NCBI GenBank assembly: GCA_031286225.1
Contig: JAITUQ010000039.1
Coordinates: 1-64,000, forward strand
Source: Candidatus Methanorudis spinitermitis
GTDB taxonomy: Archaea; Methanobacteriota; Methanobacteria; Methanobacteriales; Methanobacteriaceae
DNA: 64,000 nt
Direction of reading: 5' to 3'
The first letter of the stretch is position 1. Every line of letters begins with the position of its first letter. Positions 2,371 through 13,920 of the stretch are shown here, piece by piece. The notes below the pieces were generated by a model. That model made no database searches and was not told the origin of the DNA. It saw nothing but the letters and a program-made list of their open reading frames with translations. The translations under genes were made by a program, and so were the position numbers.

Positions 2371-3081
2371 ATGATTATAGCTATTTTAATGGCTGGAGGA
2401 AAAGGAACTAGATTAAAAAGCAATATTGAAAAACCTCTTTTTAAATTCAAATCTAAAACATTAATTGACCATGTTTTAAATAATTTATCTAACTCTAAAT
2501 ATATTGGAAAGATTATAGTAGCTACTAGTCCACATACTCCTAACACAAAAGAATATATAACTAAAAAAATCAATAATAGTCTTAACAATTTTAAAAATCT
2601 AAGTAATTCCCATAATAAAAATATTGAAGAACATATTGAAATTTCAGGTGAAGATCCCCTAGATTATATTGAAACTCAAGCTAAAACTTATATGGATTAT
2701 ATTGAAACTCCAGGTGAAGGTTACATTGAGGATTTATCTTTTTTATTAGATAAATTTGAAAAAAATAGTAAAAATGATGTATTAGTCATAATAAATGTTG
2801 ACTTACCTTTTGTCACATCAGATATTATTGATAATGTTTTAAAAAAATATTTTAAATCAGAAAAAATAGCTATGTCAGTTCATGTTCCCCTTGAAATTTT
2901 TAATAAATATGGAATAAAACCTTCCTATGTATTTGATAATCTTGTTCCATCAGGATTAAATATATTAACCAGTCAAAATATAGAACAAGTAGAAGAAAAG
3001 TTAATTATTCCTAAGCTAGAGTTAGCCTTGAATATAAATACTCTTGATGATATACACATAGCTAATGAAATATTTAAATAA
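2371..3081 (+). CDS. cobY: GTP:adenosylcobinamide-phosphate guanylyltransferase
   Basis: This is the archaeal enzyme that transfers GMP to adenosylcobinamide phosphate in the last steps of cobamide (B12-type cofactor) synthesis, unrelated to bacterial CobU. Seen: an N-terminal nucleotidyltransferase signature MAGGKGTRL (residues 7-15) followed by EKPLF, TSPHTPNT near residue 52, and NVDLPFV near residue 142, typical of the MobA/CobY fold. The length of 236 exceeds the roughly 195-200 usual for CobY. The extra length sits at about residues 70-115, where a hydrophilic stretch repeats a YIET-type element just before the usual ETPGEGYIEDL segment. TTGAT lies 3 nt before the ATG, the GTGAT-type ribosome site used widely in this window. 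The cobamide is needed by Mtr and by CdhDE encoded here. Confidence 0.85.
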   Translation: MIIAILMAGGKGTRLKSNIEKPLFKFKSKTLIDHVLNNLSNSKYIGKIIVATSPHTPNTKEYITKKINNSLNNFKNLSNSHNKNIEEHIEISGEDPLDYIETQAKTYMDYIETPGEGYIEDLSFLLDKFEKNSKNDVLVIINVDLPFVTSDIIDNVLKKYFKSEKIAMSVHVPLEIFNKYGIKPSYVFDNLVPSGLNILTSQNIEQVEEKLIIPKLELALNINTLDDIHIANEIFK

Positions 3082-3156
3082 AAAGAAAATGTATGTTTAT
3101 ATAAATTTTAGAATATTTATATAATTATTTTTAATATCTTGATTATTGGTGAAAAC

Positions 3157-3432
3157 ATGGATGATAAAGAAATTCCTAAAAAAGAAAAAAAAGAAGAGAA
3201 ACTTTGGAGTCAAATTAAAGGCTATCAAGTAGCTACTAATAATGCAAAAATTGTTGGAGTACTTGACGAACTGATTATTAATCAAAAAACTGGTAGGATA
3301 GTTGATATAGCTGTTAAAATTGAAGAAGATCGTGCTGTCCATGTTAAAGGATCTAGAAGGCATGGAGAATTTTTATTGATTCCATTTGCTCAAGTAGAAA
3401 AAGTTGGCGAATTTATCATTGTATCTGAATAA
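3157..3432 (+). CDS. PRC-barrel domain protein
   Basis: A small acidic/basic N-terminal tail (KEIPKKEKKEEK) is followed by a PRC-barrel beta-domain of about 75 residues: LWSQIKGYQV, then GVLDELIIN and GRIVDIAVKI, ending in LIPFAQVEKVGEFIIV. PRC-barrel proteins in archaea are small, soluble, and found near RNA-processing, cell-division (CdpB) or photosynthetic-type functions elsewhere. The role here is not established. The start is set at the ATG at 3157 rather than the in-frame TTG at 3139 because GGTG lies 5 nt upstream of the ATG. It is probably a single-gene transcript, with an AT-rich gap separating it from the oppositely oriented hdrA. Confidence 0.75.
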   Translation: MDDKEIPKKEKKEEKLWSQIKGYQVATNNAKIVGVLDELIINQKTGRIVDIAVKIEEDRAVHVKGSRRHGEFLLIPFAQVEKVGEFIIVSE

Positions 3433-3699
3433 TCATTTCTATTTAATTTGATAGCTATGGTATTTAGACAACAATGAATATTTTAACCAATTTTTGAAGT
3501 TTGTGATACATTTCCCGATTTTTTCTACTTTAATAGCTCTAATTTATATTATTTTTTAGGTTAAGATTATATTATTTTAAAAATTAAGATTATATTTAAA
3601 ATTATTGTTAAAAATAGCTAATTATAATAATAATTATAATAATAATTTTTGCTTGTATTTAGTTAAAGATTTGATTTTATCTAGATTTTTTTACTTAAT

Positions 3700-6036
3700 T
3701 TAGCTTAAAGACGCGATTTTCCTGTCAAATTTTTTGAATTTATCAGCAAGTCCTCTAAAATATGGTATGTATACATTTGAAAATAAAAGTCTTTTTGGGT
3801 TCATACCATTAGCTGCAATTTCTTTTCTTATTTGTTTCATTTTCTTTTCTACTTCGTGATACATTAAGTCTCCAGGATATTCTCCAATGAAAACTCCGTC
3901 CGCACCATTTTTAAGAGCATAAATTATATGTTTAGGCATTACTCTATTTACTGAGTGAATTTTAATTATATGGATTGATTCAGGATAATCTACTCTGTTA
4001 ACTCCAATATTATCAGCAGCTGTATAACCAACCTGATCTAAGAAAACAAGTATTCTCTTTTCTCCTTCTTTTTTATCTTTTAACATTCCAGAAATAGTTG
4101 CAAATATTTTTTCATCAATATTTCCATGAATATTAATAGCATTAGGCTTACAAACTGTTAAACACCTTCCACATCCAGAACAAGACATTGGATCAATGTA
4201 AATTTTATCATCTTTAACAGACATTGATTTATATTTACAAATAGCTATACAATCTTCACAAAGATTACATTTTTCATTATCTATTTCAGCTATAAATGGT
4301 TCAATTTCAAGCCCATCATTCATGATTTCAGCTACTTTTGAAGCTGCAGCATTAGCTTGCATTATACTGTCTGTGATGTCTTTTGGTCCTTGAGCTGTTC
4401 CACAAACATAAGCTCCTTTCACATCAGTAGCTACTGGCTTTATCTTTGGATGGGTTTCTTTTATAAACAAATCTTCAGTTAATCCAAGATTCATGATATT
4501 AGCTATTTTTTTTGTACCTTCTGATGGTTCAATAGCTGTAGATAAAACAACCATATCTGTTTCAATTTCTGTGAACTTTTTTTGCAATGTGTCTTCCACT
4601 CTTACAATTAATGAATCTCCTTTTTTATCAACTTCACCAGGTCTTCCTCGTATTAATCGTATTCCACTTTCTTGCCCATGTTTATAATATTTTTCATACA
4701 TTCCAGGAGTTCTCATATCTGTGTAACAGATAATTACATCGGTATCAGGGTATTTTTGTTTTATTATATTCGCATTTTTTAAAGCAACCATACAACATAC
4801 TTTTGAGCAGTATTTATGACCATCAGGTTTTTCATCTCTTGAACCAACACATTGTATCATAACTACTCGTCTTGGAACTTTCCCATTTGAGAGCATTCTT
4901 AGTTTGCCTTTTGTTGGTCCATTTACTCCCATAATACGGCCAAGTTCATTTTGTGTCATAATATCTTTATATTTTCCATATCCATATTCTGGTCTGAGAG
5001 TAGGATCAATGTTTTTATGACCAGTAGCTATTACAACAGAACCTGCATTTAAAGGAATCATTTCACTTTCTCCTTTAAGGCATATTGCATCCATAGGGCA
5101 TTGTTTTACACATTTTCCACACTTTTCACAATTTTCCATATCAATTGTGTATGCATCAGGATAACTTTGAGAAAATGGTTTGTAAATTGCTTTTCTAGTT
5201 GAAAGTCCATCATTCCATGAGTCTGGAACTTCTACATGGCATATTTCTGTACATTTTCCACATGAAATACATTTTTCCTCATCTACATATCTTGGCTTTC
5301 TTTTAAGTAAGATATTAAAGTTTCCAGCTCTTTTCTCTACACTTAAGACCTTAGCATTGGTTATAATTTCAATATTCTCATGCCAAATAACTTCATTCAT
5401 AATAGGATTTATCAAACACATTCCACATTCTTCTGCAAGTTTCACTGGAGAGAATACTTTTCCAATCTTTATCATTTTCCCTCCAATAGATGGTTTTTTT
5501 TCTATTAGATAAGTTTTAATTCCTTGTTTTGCAAGTGAAAGAGCAGCACTAATTCCAGAAATTCCTCCTCCAATAACAGCAGCTGTTTCTGGAGTTTGAC
5601 AAAGTATTGGATCAACAGCTTGGGACTGTTTCACTTTCTCTATTGACGCATTAATCAATGTTTTAGCTTTTTCAGTAGCTTTCTTTTCATCATCATGGAT
5701 CCATGAACATTGCTCCCGAAGATTTGCCATATCCATAAGATAAGGGTTCAATGGTTTTATATAATCTTGAAAGGTCTTTTCATGAGTGATTGGTGAGCAA
5801 GCAGCTATCACTACTCTATCTAAATTTTTATTAATGACACTATCTCTAATTACCTTACGTCCATTTAGTGAACATAAATTTTCAAACTCTTCAACAATAT
5901 CTGCATTTATTGAGGTTTTGAGATTTTCGATATCTATAATATCTGAAATGTTTCCTCCACATCTACAAAGAAAAACACCTACTCGTAATTCTGGCTTTGA
6001 AGATATTGGGGGGTTTACAATTGTCATTTTAATCAT
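3700..6036 (-). CDS. hdrA: Heterodisulfide reductase subunit A with fused MvhD-like C-terminal domain
   Basis: This is the flavin and iron-sulfur subunit of the cytoplasmic heterodisulfide reductase, which splits electrons between CoM-S-S-CoB and ferredoxin. Seen: the HdrA N-terminal module (LCRCGGN at 23-29, ACSPITHE at 79-86, REQCSW), an FAD loop GGGISG at 156-161, a [4Fe-4S] pair at about 256-316 (CISCGKCTEIC and CEKCGKCVKQC), an insertion-type CVGSRDEKPDG segment, a second [4Fe-4S] pair at 590-634, and an MvhD/FlpD-like domain at 660-778. The MvhD-like part keeps the fold motifs (AADNIGVNRVDYP, NGADGVFIGEYPGD) but has no cysteine, so its [2Fe-2S] site is missing. Fused HdrA-MvhD proteins (HdrA2 type) are known in other methanogens. 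It is last in hdrC-hdrB-hdrA; M1 or M4 may be the start. It is likely a paralogue of the housekeeping HdrA. Confidence 0.9.
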   Translation of the reverse strand: MIKMTIVNPPISSKPELRVGVFLCRCGGNISDIIDIENLKTSINADIVEEFENLCSLNGRKVIRDSVINKNLDRVVIAACSPITHEKTFQDYIKPLNPYLMDMANLREQCSWIHDDEKKATEKAKTLINASIEKVKQSQAVDPILCQTPETAAVIGGGISGISAALSLAKQGIKTYLIEKKPSIGGKMIKIGKVFSPVKLAEECGMCLINPIMNEVIWHENIEIITNAKVLSVEKRAGNFNILLKRKPRYVDEEKCISCGKCTEICHVEVPDSWNDGLSTRKAIYKPFSQSYPDAYTIDMENCEKCGKCVKQCPMDAICLKGESEMIPLNAGSVVIATGHKNIDPTLRPEYGYGKYKDIMTQNELGRIMGVNGPTKGKLRMLSNGKVPRRVVMIQCVGSRDEKPDGHKYCSKVCCMVALKNANIIKQKYPDTDVIICYTDMRTPGMYEKYYKHGQESGIRLIRGRPGEVDKKGDSLIVRVEDTLQKKFTEIETDMVVLSTAIEPSEGTKKIANIMNLGLTEDLFIKETHPKIKPVATDVKGAYVCGTAQGPKDITDSIMQANAAASKVAEIMNDGLEIEPFIAEIDNEKCNLCEDCIAICKYKSMSVKDDKIYIDPMSCSGCGRCLTVCKPNAINIHGNIDEKIFATISGMLKDKKEGEKRILVFLDQVGYTAADNIGVNRVDYPESIHIIKIHSVNRVMPKHIIYALKNGADGVFIGEYPGDLMYHEVEKKMKQIRKEIAANGMNPKRLLFSNVYIPYFRGLADKFKKFDRKIASLS

Positions 6037-6291: not shown

Positions 6292-7275
6292 TTAATCTGA
6301 ATAAACATCTTCTACAACTTTTGTTTTTTTCATTTCATGTGAAATAGCTTCTACTTTTTCAATCAATGGTTCTATTGGAACAGTATGTGTTTGGATCCCC
6401 ACTACTTTATAAGGATCAGCACCCATTACAAAAGCAATTAGCTGGGCAATGTTTAAATGAAATATATTAAATTCAATCTTCAAATCTTTAGCTATAAATG
6501 GTTGATATCTATCAAACTGCATTTGGCAATTTGGACACATATGGACTAATATATCTGTATTTTCATCTTTTAAAGTTAATAACTTATCAGTGGTGACTTT
6601 CAAAGATAAATCTCGGTTTACAAATCTTTGTCTAAATCCAGCACCACATGTAGCCCTTTTATTGTTATACCAAGCAATTGGCTCTATTCCACAGCTTTTT
6701 ATAAGTTCATCTAATATTTTAGGATCTCTAAATCCTTCAATGACATCCTCATATTGAACTTTACAGTAATGACAAGCATGGTGAGTGGCTATTCTAAATT
6801 TTGAAAGATTAAGCTTCACATGTTTAGCTATTTCATCTCTTTTATTGTAAAGTATCTCAACTACATGGAAGATATTTGAGGAAGAATCAATACTGTCTTT
6901 CTTATACTTCATTTTTTCAAGTTTAGCTTCTTTAAAAATATCATTAACATCTGATCTTACTTTTTTATTCTTGTTTAATAGTTTAGCTACTTTTTTATGT
7001 ATTGCATAACAAGTAGCACAGAGCATAACTATGTTAGTATTATTAGTATCATTAGCTAAATGGAAGTTACGGGCTCCTATAACTGTGGTGGAAAATTGAT
7101 CAAACACATCAGAGTAATGTCCAAGCCCTGTACAGCAAGACTGCCTGTCATCAACTAAATAATCTATTCCAACTTTATCAAAAATATATTTAGTGGATGA
7201 TTCAACTCCAGGATACTCTCCACTTACTAAACAGCTTTTAAAGAGCATAATATTTTTATCAGGTATATTTTTCAT
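6292..7275 (-). CDS. hdrB: Heterodisulfide reductase subunit B (CCG domains)
   Basis: HdrB is the catalytic subunit carrying two noncubane [4Fe-4S] clusters that cleave the CoM-S-S-CoB disulfide. Seen: the first CCG motif set at C15, C47-C48, C86 and C89, and the second set at C168, C171, C210, C247 and C250. In the second set the paired cysteine is broken: position 209 is threonine (codon ACA), giving T-C instead of C-C. Family members normally have CC in both repeats, so one cluster may be altered. The rest of the fold signature (CHYCK, CPNCQMQFDRYQ) is intact and the length of 327 is slightly above the usual 290-300. AAGGT lies 7-8 nt before the ATG. It sits between hdrC (217-nt gap) and hdrA (255-nt gap), unusually loose spacing for an hdr operon. 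Confidence 0.88.
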   Translation of the reverse strand: MKNIPDKNIMLFKSCLVSGEYPGVESSTKYIFDKVGIDYLVDDRQSCCTGLGHYSDVFDQFSTTVIGARNFHLANDTNNTNIVMLCATCYAIHKKVAKLLNKNKKVRSDVNDIFKEAKLEKMKYKKDSIDSSSNIFHVVEILYNKRDEIAKHVKLNLSKFRIATHHACHYCKVQYEDVIEGFRDPKILDELIKSCGIEPIAWYNNKRATCGAGFRQRFVNRDLSLKVTTDKLLTLKDENTDILVHMCPNCQMQFDRYQPFIAKDLKIEFNIFHLNIAQLIAFVMGADPYKVVGIQTHTVPIEPLIEKVEAISHEMKKTKVVEDVYSD

Positions 7276-7492: not shown

Positions 7493-8092
7493 CTAATCAT
7501 CTATTTCATGAGTGTCTTTAATTTTTTTAAGTCTTTTATCAAAATTTGTTTTTTCAAGTAATACTCTAATTTCTTTAATAGATTCATCTGGCATTTTAAG
7601 AGGTTTTAATCCTAATTCTAGTCGTATTTCATCTAAATGCAAGTTTTTTTCCATCCATTCTTCACCAATGTCTCTTGTTAAATCATGGTAGAAATTACTT
7701 GGAATACCACCAAGACCTAAATCTAACATTTTATCTCCAAAATCTGAAAAAGGACTTATTTCATTATTAACTATTCCTTTTGCTATAGCTAATTGTCTTA
7801 AAACTTGATTTACTTCACAAGCACTATTATCAACAGGGCAGATACTGTGACATGTATAGCAGTAAAAACACTTCCAAATGTTTTCTTCTTCAATTACACT
7901 TTCATCTCCTTCAAGAACTCTTTCAATCATATCTCGAGGATTGTAATCTGAATTTTTAGCAGAAGGACAAGTAGATGTACACATTCCACATTGTACACAT
8001 TTAAGAAGTCCCATGTTTTCCGATGATTTTAAGTCATTTAATATCTTATTTGCAAGATTTAAAGGATGATCATTTATTTTTAGAGTTTTCAT
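7493..8092 (-). CDS. hdrC: Heterodisulfide reductase subunit C (two [4Fe-4S] clusters)
   Basis: HdrC passes electrons from HdrA to HdrB. Seen: two ferredoxin motifs, C32-x2-C35-x2-C38-x3-C42-P and C75-x2-C78-x2-C81-x3-C85-P, with the usual IWKCFYCYTCHSICP context, and an alpha-helical C-terminal half. The length of 199 is normal for HdrC. It is the first gene of the minus-strand hdrC-hdrB-hdrA set. AGGAG lies 7 nt before the ATG. Just upstream is a perfect 22-bp tandem duplication (8120-8163). Many Methanobacteriales keep hdrA apart from hdrBC; the linked arrangement with a fused HdrA suggests an auxiliary complex rather than the main one. Confidence 0.9.
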   Translation of the reverse strand: MKTLKINDHPLNLANKILNDLKSSENMGLLKCVQCGMCTSTCPSAKNSDYNPRDMIERVLEGDESVIEEENIWKCFYCYTCHSICPVDNSACEVNQVLRQLAIAKGIVNNEISPFSDFGDKMLDLGLGGIPSNFYHDLTRDIGEEWMEKNLHLDEIRLELGLKPLKMPDESIKEIRVLLEKTNFDKRLKKIKDTHEIDD

Positions 8093-9174: not shown

Positions 9175-11556
9175 ATGAACAATTTTAATAAAAAAGCTGA
9201 TAAGTTTGAAACTAAATCAACTTTTAATAAATCTATTTTAAAGAGTTTTTTGCTTTTAACACTTCTTGGAATAGTGTTTTTTACACTAATTTCTGGAGTT
9301 AATGCAAAAACATTTTATGAAGGTGTATCTTCAAATGATATTCAAAATTTTATAAATGATAATAATGAAGGCAATACAATTATTTTTAGTGCAGGAACCT
9401 ACAATAACCTTCAAAATTTGAATATTACAAGAAGTGTTAATATAACATCTAATGGTCAAGTTAATATAAAAGGTAATGGGGGCATCCTTTTTAATATAAC
9501 TGCAAATGATGTTAATATTACTAAACTGAATATTAGTGGATATCAAACAGCTATTAAATCAAATAATAGTAAAATATCAATAATTGGAAATAGTATATCT
9601 ACAAGCGATATTAGTATTAATTGTACTGGTTCTAATTCAATAGATATTTTAATTGAAAATAATACCATAATTTCTTCCATAAGCAATTCAAACTATGGTG
9701 CTATTTATGTGAGTGCCTCTACTGGTTCAATTGTTAGTGCTTCTGTGAAAAATAATAATATCATCGCTAAGGGTGTAGATAATTCTAATGGCGTATATTT
9801 TTGGACTTATAGTTGTAATAATACATTGAATTTTGAAAACAACATTATTATAGGAACAACAGGGAAAGGTGTTTATCTCTATATACACCATAGCAAGAAC
9901 AATATAACTTTCACCAAAAACCATATCATGGGGAACGGAACAGTTGAAGGTGATGGTATTTTAGGTTATGCACATGACAGTAACAACAATTTAACCTTTA
10001 CTGACAATAATATATCAGGAAAAAGATATGGTGTTTTTCTATATGTATTAACTAGTTCCAACAATATAACTTTCACTAATAATAAGATTGTAGGTGAATG
10101 GAGAGCTGTGAAAATTGATGCATTCAGTGGCAACAACACTATAACATTTATTAACAATAACATTATAGGGTATGAAGATGGTTTTGAGATGCCTGCAGCC
10201 TCCAGTACTAACAATATAACTCTCATTAATAACAATATCACAGGATATCTCTCAGGTGTTTGTTTTGATGCACCTAGTAGTAACAATACTTTAACTTTCA
10301 TTGGTAATAATCTCAAAGGAACATTAAACCCTGGTCTTGATATCTATGTACCTGTTAGTAACAACAATATAATCTTAATTAACAACAATATTACTGGTGA
10401 AAACGCTGTTGCTCTTAATTTAGAGATATACAGTAGTAGCAAAAATATTTTAACAGTTTTTAACAATAATATCACTGGAATGAAATGGGGAGGTATTTAT
10501 TTAGATGCATCCAACAGTAACAACGCTGTTTTAAGCTTTGTTGGGAATAATATTACTGGTAATGGTAATAGTTATGCTATGCGTATTGATTTTTGGGGTG
10601 AATTTAGTGGTTTGTCTATATTGAATAATACCTTTAACAGTAATGGGATTGGTTTGCATTTTCGTCTTTATGGTGTTGTTTTAAGTAATGTTAATATTAC
10701 AGGTAATACTATACTCGCGACTAGTACTGGCATTTATTTTCATGAAAATAACCCTAGTTCTGTTGCTTTAACTGTTAATTATAATCGTATTATAGCTCCT
10801 GTTGGCTTAAATTTCATAGCTACTACTGATAATGGTTGTAATTTTGATTATAATTGGTGGGGAATTAACGATATTAGTGATAAAGTTGTTGGTTTTCATA
10901 CTAATAATCATTATATTTTGAATATTATTAATCTTACTAGTTTGGAGAATGTATTTGTTGGAGATAAAGTGAATTTTGCTTTATTGGTATTAAATACTAC
11001 TTTAACTAATATTGGTGTTGAAAACTTACCTTATTTTGATATTAATGGAACATTTAATGGTATTGATTATAATACTAATCGCGATAGTCTTTTTGTCCAT
11101 GAATTCATTATTTTAAATGAAGGTTTACAGTTTTTAAACGCTTCTTTAGATGAACAATATGTAGATTTATCTTTTAATGCATCTTTTGCTGACATTGAAG
11201 AACCTGATAATGGTACTGATATTGGAGATTCTGGTAATGGTACTGATATTGAAGATCTTGATAATGGTACTGATATTGGAGATTCTGGTAATGATGTTGA
11301 AATTGAAGATCCAAGTAATGGTACTTATAATGATTATTCTAGCAATAATCCTGATGGAGAAGAATTAGTTTTTGATAAAAAAGATAATGAAGATAATAAA
11401 GACACTATTAAATATAAAAATACAGATAAAAATACCAACAATCCTAAAAATACTTTTAAAATGTCTGTTGGCATGAAATCTACAGGTATTAACATAGTCA
11501 TACTTTTAATATTAGCTATTTTATCTTTAATAACGTATAGAAGAAATAATAAATAA
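9175..11556 (+). CDS. Adhesin-like surface protein, beta-helix type
   Basis: This large secreted protein has 793 residues. Seen: a positively charged N-terminus and hydrophobic signal segment (about residues 25-44, ending SGVNA), then a right-handed parallel beta-helix from about 55 to 570 built of repeats ending in NNITFTNN-x-I-x-G. A CARDB-like or fibronectin-like region follows at about 580-670. Five 9-residue acidic repeats (NGTDIGDSG type, residues 678-722) precede a charged linker and a C-terminal MKSTGIN-transmembrane-YRRNNK tail. Known: such proteins are abundant on Methanobrevibacter and bind host or microbial partners. Many NxT/NxS sites suggest N-glycosylation. AGGA lies 8 nt before the ATG. 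The promoter is the triple 125-bp repeat. Its tail is shared with the next surface gene. The ligand is unknown. Confidence 0.8.
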   Translation: MNNFNKKADKFETKSTFNKSILKSFLLLTLLGIVFFTLISGVNAKTFYEGVSSNDIQNFINDNNEGNTIIFSAGTYNNLQNLNITRSVNITSNGQVNIKGNGGILFNITANDVNITKLNISGYQTAIKSNNSKISIIGNSISTSDISINCTGSNSIDILIENNTIISSISNSNYGAIYVSASTGSIVSASVKNNNIIAKGVDNSNGVYFWTYSCNNTLNFENNIIIGTTGKGVYLYIHHSKNNITFTKNHIMGNGTVEGDGILGYAHDSNNNLTFTDNNISGKRYGVFLYVLTSSNNITFTNNKIVGEWRAVKIDAFSGNNTITFINNNIIGYEDGFEMPAASSTNNITLINNNITGYLSGVCFDAPSSNNTLTFIGNNLKGTLNPGLDIYVPVSNNNIILINNNITGENAVALNLEIYSSSKNILTVFNNNITGMKWGGIYLDASNSNNAVLSFVGNNITGNGNSYAMRIDFWGEFSGLSILNNTFNSNGIGLHFRLYGVVLSNVNITGNTILATSTGIYFHENNPSSVALTVNYNRIIAPVGLNFIATTDNGCNFDYNWWGINDISDKVVGFHTNNHYILNIINLTSLENVFVGDKVNFALLVLNTTLTNIGVENLPYFDINGTFNGIDYNTNRDSLFVHEFIILNEGLQFLNASLDEQYVDLSFNASFADIEEPDNGTDIGDSGNGTDIEDLDNGTDIGDSGNDVEIEDPSNGTYNDYSSNNPDGEELVFDKKDNEDNKDTIKYKNTDKNTNNPKNTFKMSVGMKSTGINIVILLILAILSLITYRRNNK
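11206..11340 (+). repeat. 27-bp coding tandem repeat (9-residue units)
   Basis: Five in-frame 27-bp units encode DNGTDIGDS-type 9-mers in the stalk of the surface protein; the last two have diverged. Repeat-number changes here would alter stalk length without a frameshift. Confidence 0.8.
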
Positions 11557-11666
11557 AACAAGCTTTTTTTTTAAATAGCTTATTTATATTTTTAAATAAA
11601 ATTTTTTTTTAAGTATTTTATTTTATAAAAAATATGTTTTAATAAATAAATTATAGGATATTAAAT

Positions 11667-11804
11667 ATGAAAAATTTTAATAAGAAAGATGATATGTTAG
11701 AAACTAAATTAACTCTTAATAAATCTGTTTTAAAGAGTTATTTTACTTTTAATGATAAACACATACTTTTTTTCATTTTAAGGAGGTGGAAAAATTATAT
11801 TTGA
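11667..11804 (+). pseudogene. Orphan N-terminal fragment of an adhesin-like gene
   Basis: A 45-codon frame starting MKNFNKKDDMLETKLTLNKS matches the N-terminus of the upstream surface protein (MNNFNKKADKFETKSTFNKS) for about 25 residues, then diverges and ends at TGA 11802-11804. The upstream bases ATTATAGGA-TATTAA are also shared with that gene's ribosome site. It is best read as the 5' remnant of a lost paralogue. It might instead act as a leader frame, because its end overlaps the start of the next gene and contains that gene's AGGAGGTG. Confidence 0.65.
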
Positions 11805-13920
11805 AGAAAAACACAAAAAACCATTAATTCATTTTTTAATGGTACTAAGTTTTTTATTCATAGTTTGTAGTTTACAAACACCTTATGCAGCTAACCAAAC
11901 AATTGATAATACAACTGTTGGTGGAATAGCACAAGGTATAAACAATACAGGGATTGGAGAAATCTTATTTTTACAACCTGGAATATACAATAAAGCAGGT
12001 GATATTGGAATAATGATAAATAAAAGTATAACAATACAAGGTAATGGCTCAACAGACACAGTAATTATAGATGGGCAAAAATTAAAGAGAATATTCGAAA
12101 TAAGGAATAATAATATAAAATTTATAAACATAACATTTATAAATGGAAATAATACTAATGGTGGTGCTATCTACAATAATAATAAATATGCAAATATAAC
12201 ATTCATAAATTGTAAATTCATTAATAATACAGCTACTAGTTCTGGTGGAGCTATTTCCAATAGTAATGGTTATAATTTCGTACTGATAAACTGTACTTTC
12301 ACAAACAACAAAGCAACTTATGATGGTGGTGCTATCTATGAGTATGGATCTAATATTACATTAATAGATTGTATTTTCACAAACAACACAGCCGAAGAAT
12401 ATGGTGGTGCTATCTTTATTGGTGGGGGGTTTAATTTCACTATAATAAACAGCAACTTCACTAATAACACAGCTCAATGGGGTGGTGCTATTTTTGGTTG
12501 GCTTGAAAATGATGTTAAAATAATAAACAGTACTTTCACTAATAACACAGCCAAAGATGTTGGTGCTGCTGGTGGTGCTATCTACTTTGAAGGTAATAAT
12601 TATCTTATAGTAAATAGTACTTTCACAAACAACGTTGCCACCTTTGGGTATGGTGGTGCTCTAATTAATCATGGAGCCAATAATTCAATTATAAACTGTA
12701 CTTTCACAAACAACAGAGCATACTATAGCGGGGGTGCTATATATGTATATAATAAGTCTTATGTTGGCACTGAATCTTATAGTTTTAAAATAATGAATTC
12801 TAATTTCACTAATAACACAGCCCAATTTGGTGGTGCTATCTACAATCAGTGTAATTCTTCCACAATAATAAATAGTAAGTTCAGTAATAACAATGCATCA
12901 AATCGTGGTGGTGCAATCTATAATATTGGTAATCTTAGTGTAACTAATTCTAATTTCGAAAATAACCTGGCATCATATTATGGTGGGGCTATTTATAATA
13001 ATGGATTTATGGGTGTTTTTAACAATACTATGAAAGGTAATTTTGCAGATTTAGGGCAGATGATCTATAATAATGGTAATATGGGCATTTTAAACCTGAC
13101 TTACTTAAAAAATAGTACTATAAAAGTTGTAAAAGGTCAGATTGTTACTTTATATGCTACTTTAACTGATGATATGGGTAATACTGTAACAGGTCAAAGT
13201 ATAAGTTTCATGGTTAATGGAACTAGTATTGGATCTGCAAATTCTGTTGAAGGATATGCTAGTATAAATTATACTGTACCTGATTTTGAAGATTTACTTC
13301 CTGTTTCTGGTGATTATGCTGGTCATACAAATTATCAAATAATTCTATTAAATGGCCAATTAAGAGCCGCAATAGAAACTAACTCAACAATAAACACTCC
13401 AAATAATGTTAAAGTCGGTCAAAAAATTAATATAACAGGTACTGCAACTGATAAAAATGGAAATCCAATAGCTAACACCATCATCACCGTCACAGTAAAT
13501 GGTAAAACGTATACCGTAACTACTGATGGTAATGGGAACTGGATTTTATCTTACACACCAACTCAAGCTGGAAACATTATTGTTTCAGTTCAATGGGATG
13601 GAAATGACAGTTACTTTGGATTTATCAATAGTACATCATTTGATGTTACTGGAAATGATTCTAATTCAACTGATGAAAATAAAACTAATAATACAGATAA
13701 TAATACGGATAATCCTATTAATGATTCTGATGATGAAGAGTTAGACCATGATAAAAATGGTATTGGCGATAATAATAAAGATAAAGGTGTAGATAATAAT
13801 CTCAGTAAACCTAATCTTTTAAATGTTCATACTAGTATGAAATCTACTGGTATTAACATAGCTATACTCTTAGTATTAGCTATTTTAACTTTAGTAGCAT
13901 ATAGAAGAAATAGTAAATAA
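11794..13920 (+). CDS. Adhesin-like surface protein with FTNNTA/GGAIY repeats and Ig-like domains
   Basis: This is a secreted beta-helix protein. Seen: a signal segment (about 20 hydrophobic residues ending TPYAA), then about 12 repeats of the type NSTFTNNTA-x-x-x-GGAIY forming a polymorphic beta-helix (to about residue 410). Two beta-sandwich regions follow: an Ig-like unit around NMGILNLTYLKN to residue 520 and a bacterial Ig-like unit (NVKVGQKINITGTATDKNG). The end is an Asn/Asp-rich linker and an MKSTGIN-transmembrane-YRRNSK tail. Start: the first ATG is 11839, but a strong AGGAGGTG at 11781-11788 lies 7 nt (from GGAGG) before an in-frame ATT at 11794, which adds a basic n-region (EEKHKK) to the signal peptide, so ATT is preferred. 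It follows an orphan adhesin fragment, suggesting recombination between surface genes. Confidence 0.78.
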   Translation: MIFEEKHKKPLIHFLMVLSFLFIVCSLQTPYAANQTIDNTTVGGIAQGINNTGIGEILFLQPGIYNKAGDIGIMINKSITIQGNGSTDTVIIDGQKLKRIFEIRNNNIKFINITFINGNNTNGGAIYNNNKYANITFINCKFINNTATSSGGAISNSNGYNFVLINCTFTNNKATYDGGAIYEYGSNITLIDCIFTNNTAEEYGGAIFIGGGFNFTIINSNFTNNTAQWGGAIFGWLENDVKIINSTFTNNTAKDVGAAGGAIYFEGNNYLIVNSTFTNNVATFGYGGALINHGANNSIINCTFTNNRAYYSGGAIYVYNKSYVGTESYSFKIMNSNFTNNTAQFGGAIYNQCNSSTIINSKFSNNNASNRGGAIYNIGNLSVTNSNFENNLASYYGGAIYNNGFMGVFNNTMKGNFADLGQMIYNNGNMGILNLTYLKNSTIKVVKGQIVTLYATLTDDMGNTVTGQSISFMVNGTSIGSANSVEGYASINYTVPDFEDLLPVSGDYAGHTNYQIILLNGQLRAAIETNSTINTPNNVKVGQKINITGTATDKNGNPIANTIITVTVNGKTYTVTTDGNGNWILSYTPTQAGNIIVSVQWDGNDSYFGFINSTSFDVTGNDSNSTDENKTNNTDNNTDNPINDSDDEELDHDKNGIGDNNKDKGVDNNLSKPNLLNVHTSMKSTGINIAILLVLAILTLVAYRRNSK

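Follow-up and report, generated by a model that had tools for sequence, protein, structure and literature searches.

How electrons reach the flavin of an HdrA protein whose fused MvhD-like domain contains no cysteine is the question raised by a gene in the window, by which we mean the whole stretch of 64,000 nucleotides analysed here from a contig of Candidatus Methanorudis spinitermitis. A recent survey reported that fused HdrA carries the [2Fe-2S] cluster of MvhD and left open the path of electrons to its flavin (PMC12054007). The window protein resembles the type Ia HdrA of that survey (Lyu et al. 2025, PMC12054007) in having an HdrA core followed by a C-terminal MvhD domain. However, type Ia HdrA was described with one [2Fe-2S] cluster in the fused domain, whereas the class of the window protein lacks it.

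The C-terminal domain of the fused HdrA

The open reading frame at positions 3700–6036 on the reverse strand encodes an HdrA of 778 amino acids. Its core (4072–6036, reverse strand) comprises an N-terminal Fe-S domain, an FAD domain with an inserted ferredoxin domain, and a C-terminal ferredoxin domain, and matched the HdrA of M. thermolithotrophicus (5odc_A). The core is followed by a tail of 123 residues (3703–4071, reverse strand), and all 31 cysteines of the protein are in the core, with none in the tail. Residues 662–777 matched the FlpD family PF02662 (whole-protein score 88.9 bits, gathering cut-off 22.3), and the motifs GVNRVDYP and NGADGVFIGEYPGD were present. Structure prediction, which the initial annotation had suggested as a check, gave a confident MvhD-like fold: the AlphaFold2 model of the domain had a mean pLDDT of 92.1, and its closest matches in the PDB were MvhD/ElpC chains (5odh_D with a TM score of 0.88, then 8rvu_F and 7bkb_F). 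The family match, the structural match and the absence of cysteine bear out the initial annotation of an MvhD/FlpD-fold tail without cysteines, which had located the domain correctly but drawn it slightly too small (3700–4060 instead of 3703–4071).

In the alignment with MvhD, suggested at the same time, the tail was identical to the cell's own separate MvhD (L001) at 34 of 123 aligned residues. All six cysteine positions of that MvhD were replaced in the tail, counting every cysteine without singling out the ligands, and two cysteine-bearing loops were shortened by deletions. The tail thus resembles MvhD and ElpC in its fold and its PF02662 match, but differs from them in the missing cluster cysteines, the shortened loops, and the fusion to HdrA. 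Elsewhere in the same genome (contig C24, positions 2603–5868 of locus L149), FdhA-like and FdhB-like genes lie beside the separate canonical MvhD gene, an arrangement that by eye resembles an Elp cluster. Because the tail has no cysteine ligands of its own for a [2Fe-2S] cluster, electron entry must bypass it or borrow cysteines from elsewhere, in agreement with the earlier view that entry through a cluster in this domain would need another route.

Among 68 distinct tails from Methanobacteriaceae, 51 contained no cysteine and 17 contained one, a conservation that is not attributable to chance. A lone cysteine is left at the last of the old cysteine positions in some lineages (L039, L040), as might be expected if the tail were a functionless, decaying remnant. 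However, the domain is full-length across the family, with 42–85% identity to the window tail (35% in the paralog L043), and it carries new conserved motifs such as YIPYFxGLA, and we consider decay scarcely credible.

An HdrA1-like class and its altered core

The window HdrA scored 1451.2 bits against the NCBIfam model NF041891 (hdrA_Methbact), above the cut-off of 1300, and 769.3 bits against the HdrA2 model NF040770, below the cut-off of 1100. The name of NF041891 reads CoB-CoM heterodisulfide reductase, although a name is no proof of a tested function. Two Methanosarcina proteins of the HdrA1 type (L092, L093) were assigned to NF041778, and L142, a Methanosarcina HdrA2, was assigned to the HdrA2 model. 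In a core-only HdrA tree, obtained by a quick search and containing some long branches, the window protein grouped with the other Methanobacteriaceae proteins, L092, L093, an ANME-related protein from a GoM-Arc1 genome (L098), and a second Methanobacteriaceae paralog (L043), with an SH-aLRT support of 100. The members of this group were all cysteine-poor and stood apart from HdrA2, and a single clade of all cysteine-poor fused proteins was not rejected (p-AU 0.654). Judged by sequence, the window HdrA is a member of an HdrA1-like class, named "ferredoxin:CoB-CoM heterodisulfide reductase" by NCBIfam, and not of HdrA2. The initial annotation had implied an HdrA2-type protein, which fits neither its score of 769 against 1100 nor its branching with Methanosarcina HdrA1.

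Window-type fused HdrA was present in most of the Methanobacteriaceae genomes searched, some of which are fragmentary. The tails of the Methanosarcina HdrA1-type proteins matched PF02662 at 52–55 bits and contained one or two cysteines, without those of the cluster. A review named the MvhD extension as the feature that distinguishes HdrA2 from the HdrA1 of M. acetivorans (PMC6019823); contrary to this contrast, the HdrA1-type proteins of Methanosarcina analysed here carry the extension too, without the cluster cysteines. The HdrA2 proteins (MA2868 type, NF040770) of Methanosarcina, Methanolobus, Methanothrix, and ANME relatives are likewise HdrA fused to an MvhD domain, but they keep 5–7 cysteines in the tail, retain the glutamate corresponding to Glu356 of M. 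thermolithotrophicus HdrA, and form a separate branch. It is therefore almost certain that the cluster was lost throughout the tails of the HdrA1-like class, and the same loss across the class rules out that it is unique to the window protein. The initial annotation had conceded that its case would fail if the loss were typical of the whole HdrA2 group. This proved half true, since the loss is typical of the whole HdrA1-like class, whereas HdrA2 keeps its cysteines.

The closest known counterpart, Methanosarcina HdrA1 (MA3128 type, NF041778), shares with the window protein its branch, a fused cysteine-poor FlpD domain and a glycine or alanine at the Glu356 position, and its locus encodes a similar HdrB (47–49% identity) and HdrC. 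It differs in an overall identity of 41%, in the gene order A-C-B, and in having no coenzyme M (CoM) genes seen next to it, and it has been reported as methylotrophy-specific. L043 (G135:C4) is a divergent, cysteine-less fused HdrA with 47% identity to the window protein and with its own HdrB and HdrC. A scan of the genomes' contigs with this single divergent paralog as query returned no match and was redone with an alignment, and a tblastn search of plasmids yielded only distant HdrA matches. Other fused HdrA proteins with 0–2 tail cysteines were found in Thermoplasmata, Bathyarchaeota and other groups (L104, L105, L118, L134, L139); in the 40-row alignment described below, which included all of these except L134, they keep Glu at the Glu356 position.

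In an alignment of 40 HdrA rows, 28 from the cysteine-poor class and 12 others, the Fe-S cysteines of the core were kept throughout, apart from gaps in L098. The residue pair Lys409 and Glu356 has been proposed to tell bifurcating from non-bifurcating proteins (PMC12054007). The lysine, which is near N5 of the FAD, was invariant in all 40 rows and corresponds to Lys420 of the window protein (codon at 4777–4779, reverse strand). The Glu356 position, with its register taken from the alignment with M. thermolithotrophicus HdrA, was occupied by glycine or alanine in each of the 28 class rows and by glutamate in the 12 others; in the window protein it is Gly366 (codon at 4939–4941, reverse strand). 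Of the pair proposed for a bifurcating HdrA, the window protein thus keeps the lysine and has glycine for the glutamate. A further class-specific feature is an insertion of four residues (residues 197–200; 5437–5448, reverse strand) shortly before Cys204 and Cys207, which was present in 28 of 28 class rows and a gap in 12 of 12 others. Cys207 aligns with Cys197, a residue that in the solved complex is a ligand to a cluster in the partner HdrA (PMC9012536). Together, the loss of Glu356 and the insertion indicate that the alterations of this class reach beyond the tail.

The alignment also bears on where a replacement for the lost cluster might come from. The missing relay could be supplied by the cell's separate MvhD or by cysteines of the HdrA core or of another subunit, and two observations favour this: the genome also encodes a canonical MvhD, and in the core Cys437 is almost specific to the class (Cys545 is largely so). 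Yet a fused domain with the MvhD fold would be expected to fill the MvhD site itself, the operon contains no mvhD, and two of the loops that bear cysteines in MvhD are shortened in the tail, all of which makes such a relay very improbable. Core cysteines in particular are unlikely replacement ligands, as neither Cys146 nor Cys319 is conserved among class members, although the near specificity of Cys437 leaves some room.

Alternatively, the flavin might be reduced directly, as the initial annotation had suggested: F420H2 or another hydride donor might act on the FAD of HdrA, as proposed for HdrA2B2C2, so that a tail cluster would not be needed. F420H2-dependent activity has been shown for HdrA2B2C2, which has no conventional F420 site (PMC5296606, PMC12054007), and the loss of Glu356 could conceivably make room at the FAD. 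However, the window protein is not an HdrA2, HdrA2 itself retains its tail cysteines, and no FrhB- or FdhB-like gene was noticed beside hdrCBA in the loci that were read by eye. Direct reduction therefore appears improbable.

The partner subunits are encoded on the same strand as HdrA. HdrB (6292–7275, reverse strand) scored 551 bits against NF041780 (cut-off 450), and HdrC (7493–8092, reverse strand), with two 4Fe-4S motifs, scored 311 bits against NF041890 (cut-off 270), so that NCBIfam places all three subunits in ferredoxin-type Hdr models. The N-terminal CCG motif of HdrB is intact and the C-terminal one reads TCG, a change common to Methanobacteriaceae and L092/L093; the Methanobacteriaceae proteins have an extra cysteine in a CHYC sequence. 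In the HdrB proteins of L098 and L043, the N-terminal motif is altered instead.

Linkage to coenzyme M genes

In many genomes the fused hdrA gene is part of an operon with the order comA, MMP16, hdrC, hdrB, hdrA, with comD and comE nearby. In 67 of the 106 genomes, MMP16 (coenzyme M synthase, ComF) was located at most 6 kb from the fused hdrA. These genomes belong to five genera (g3, g5, g6, g9, g10); no such proximity was seen in any other genus, that of the window included. In the window's own genome, hdrCBA is on contig C12 and MMP16/comA on contig C42, not adjacent. Adjacency was found in 0 of 18 Methanosphaera-type genomes, and CoM genes were not adjacent in the two Methanosarcina loci that were read. 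According to work on M. acetivorans, the primary coenzyme M synthase there is MMP16, and the known CoM auxotroph Methanobrevibacter ruminantium M1 is without it (PMC12068725). No paper tying Hdr to MMP16/ComA operons in Methanobrevibacter was found in the open-access literature.

The two genes also co-occur. The comparison was restricted to high-quality Methanobacteriaceae genomes, with a completeness of 90% or more and a contamination of 5% or less, and presence was called from the listed matches. Of the 78 genomes of this quality, 67 had both MMP16 and the fused HdrA, 8 had neither, 2 had MMP16 only, and 1 had HdrA only (Fisher p = 1.7e-8, a value that ignores relatedness). The fused HdrA was absent from 8 of the 9 genomes without MMP16, and ComA showed a presence and absence pattern like that of MMP16 in the same genomes. 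The joint absences were spread over three genera, but they are not independent events, because the genes are adjacent there and one deletion could remove them all. The fused HdrA is missing from two high-quality genomes that do encode MMP16 and ComA (G133, G138). It is also missing from the other families of the phylum, in which ComA is present and MMP16 mostly so. All tabulated genomes lacking the fused HdrA retain a type I-like HdrA with 41–43% identity.

Several neighbouring genes were observed in passing. L054 (G055:C30) contains a tandem pair of MMP16-hdrC-hdrB-hdrA sets. At positions 660–2635 of L098, in the GoM-Arc1 genome, an XcbA-family gene (its model name is CoM-related) and a NadA-like gene lie directly upstream of hdrCBA. 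The window itself encodes a DUF2114 protein (PF09887; 475–1941, forward strand), which we take to be methanogenesis marker 14, and homologues of the genes neighbouring it are also found beside hdrCBA in L065. Two large repetitive proteins with similar C-termini, adhesin-like by eye, are encoded at 9175–13920 on the forward strand.

Electron donor and role of the complex

Published phenotypes of M. acetivorans fit a CoM-related role. Deletion of MMP16 led to upregulation of hdrABC, cs, comDE, and ssu (PMC12068725), and deletion of hdrA1B1C1 led to upregulation of sulfonate transporters, cysteate synthase, and comDE, with lower CoM-SH (PMC12713407). Without sulfide, the doubling time of the hdrA1B1C1 mutant was 81% longer than that of the parent, and the mutant was rescued by CoM plus acetate, CoM alone being insufficient (PMC9963511). 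The authors of these studies explained the mutant phenotype by ferredoxin cycling and thiol homeostasis (PMC9963511, PMC12713407).

That account corresponds to the main rival of our own reading. In this rival, the complex would be a ferredoxin:CoM-S-S-CoB reductase of energy metabolism with a cluster-free tail, as modelled for M. acetivorans HdrA1B1C1, and the link to CoM genes would reflect regulation of the CoM pool. The NCBIfam names and scores agree with such a reductase, as does the M. acetivorans work, which reads HdrABC in terms of ferredoxin and heterodisulfide recycling (PMC9963511, PMC12713407). However, these hydrogenotrophs already have a type I HdrABC with MvhD, which is retained where the window-type complex is lost. 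CoM auxotrophs would still need heterodisulfide recycling, yet the complex is missing where MMP16 is missing, and the second CCG motif is altered in HdrB of the class. We therefore regard this rival as unlikely, though a serious one.

The reading that we prefer, with a probability of roughly one half for the whole, is that of a capped, ferredoxin-fed, non-bifurcating complex that supports CoM synthesis; we infer its donor, its lack of bifurcation, its cap, and its substrate. The fused MvhD domain would have lost its [2Fe-2S] site long ago in a distinct HdrA1-like class. It keeps the MvhD fold and probably occupies the MvhD site on HdrA as a structural cap, which would keep Mvh, Elp, or Fdh partners from docking, so that electrons would not enter through the tail. 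Reduced ferredoxin, suggested as the donor of the NF041891 class by the model name, would most likely feed the ferredoxin domains of HdrA. From there, electrons would run via the 4Fe-4S clusters of the core and the FAD to HdrC and HdrB, presumably without bifurcation because Glu356 is gone. The substrate of the complex might then be a disulfide or persulfide related to CoM, and its reduction would probably assist CoM synthesis by MMP16/ComF. The task of the complex would be CoM synthesis or thiol reduction, not bifurcation driven by a hydrogenase. Because Glu356 has been lost as well and the genes accompany those for CoM biosynthesis, a ferredoxin-fed, non-bifurcating role seems more plausible than entry from a hydrogenase or a formate dehydrogenase at some new point. 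A stronger version, in which HdrCBA of this class would be a reductase dedicated to MMP16/ComF and repurposed from energy metabolism, with a cap tail and a non-bifurcating FAD, and M. acetivorans HdrA1B1C1 likewise, is tentative and somewhat unlikely.

A large natural class that has neither the cluster nor the residue proposed for bifurcation offers a ready comparison for the question of how electrons enter the flavin of HdrA. If the link to MMP16 is true, it would identify a reductant for the final step in the making of coenzyme M, and would provide an alternative reading of the CoM-starvation-like response of the M. acetivorans hdrABC mutant.
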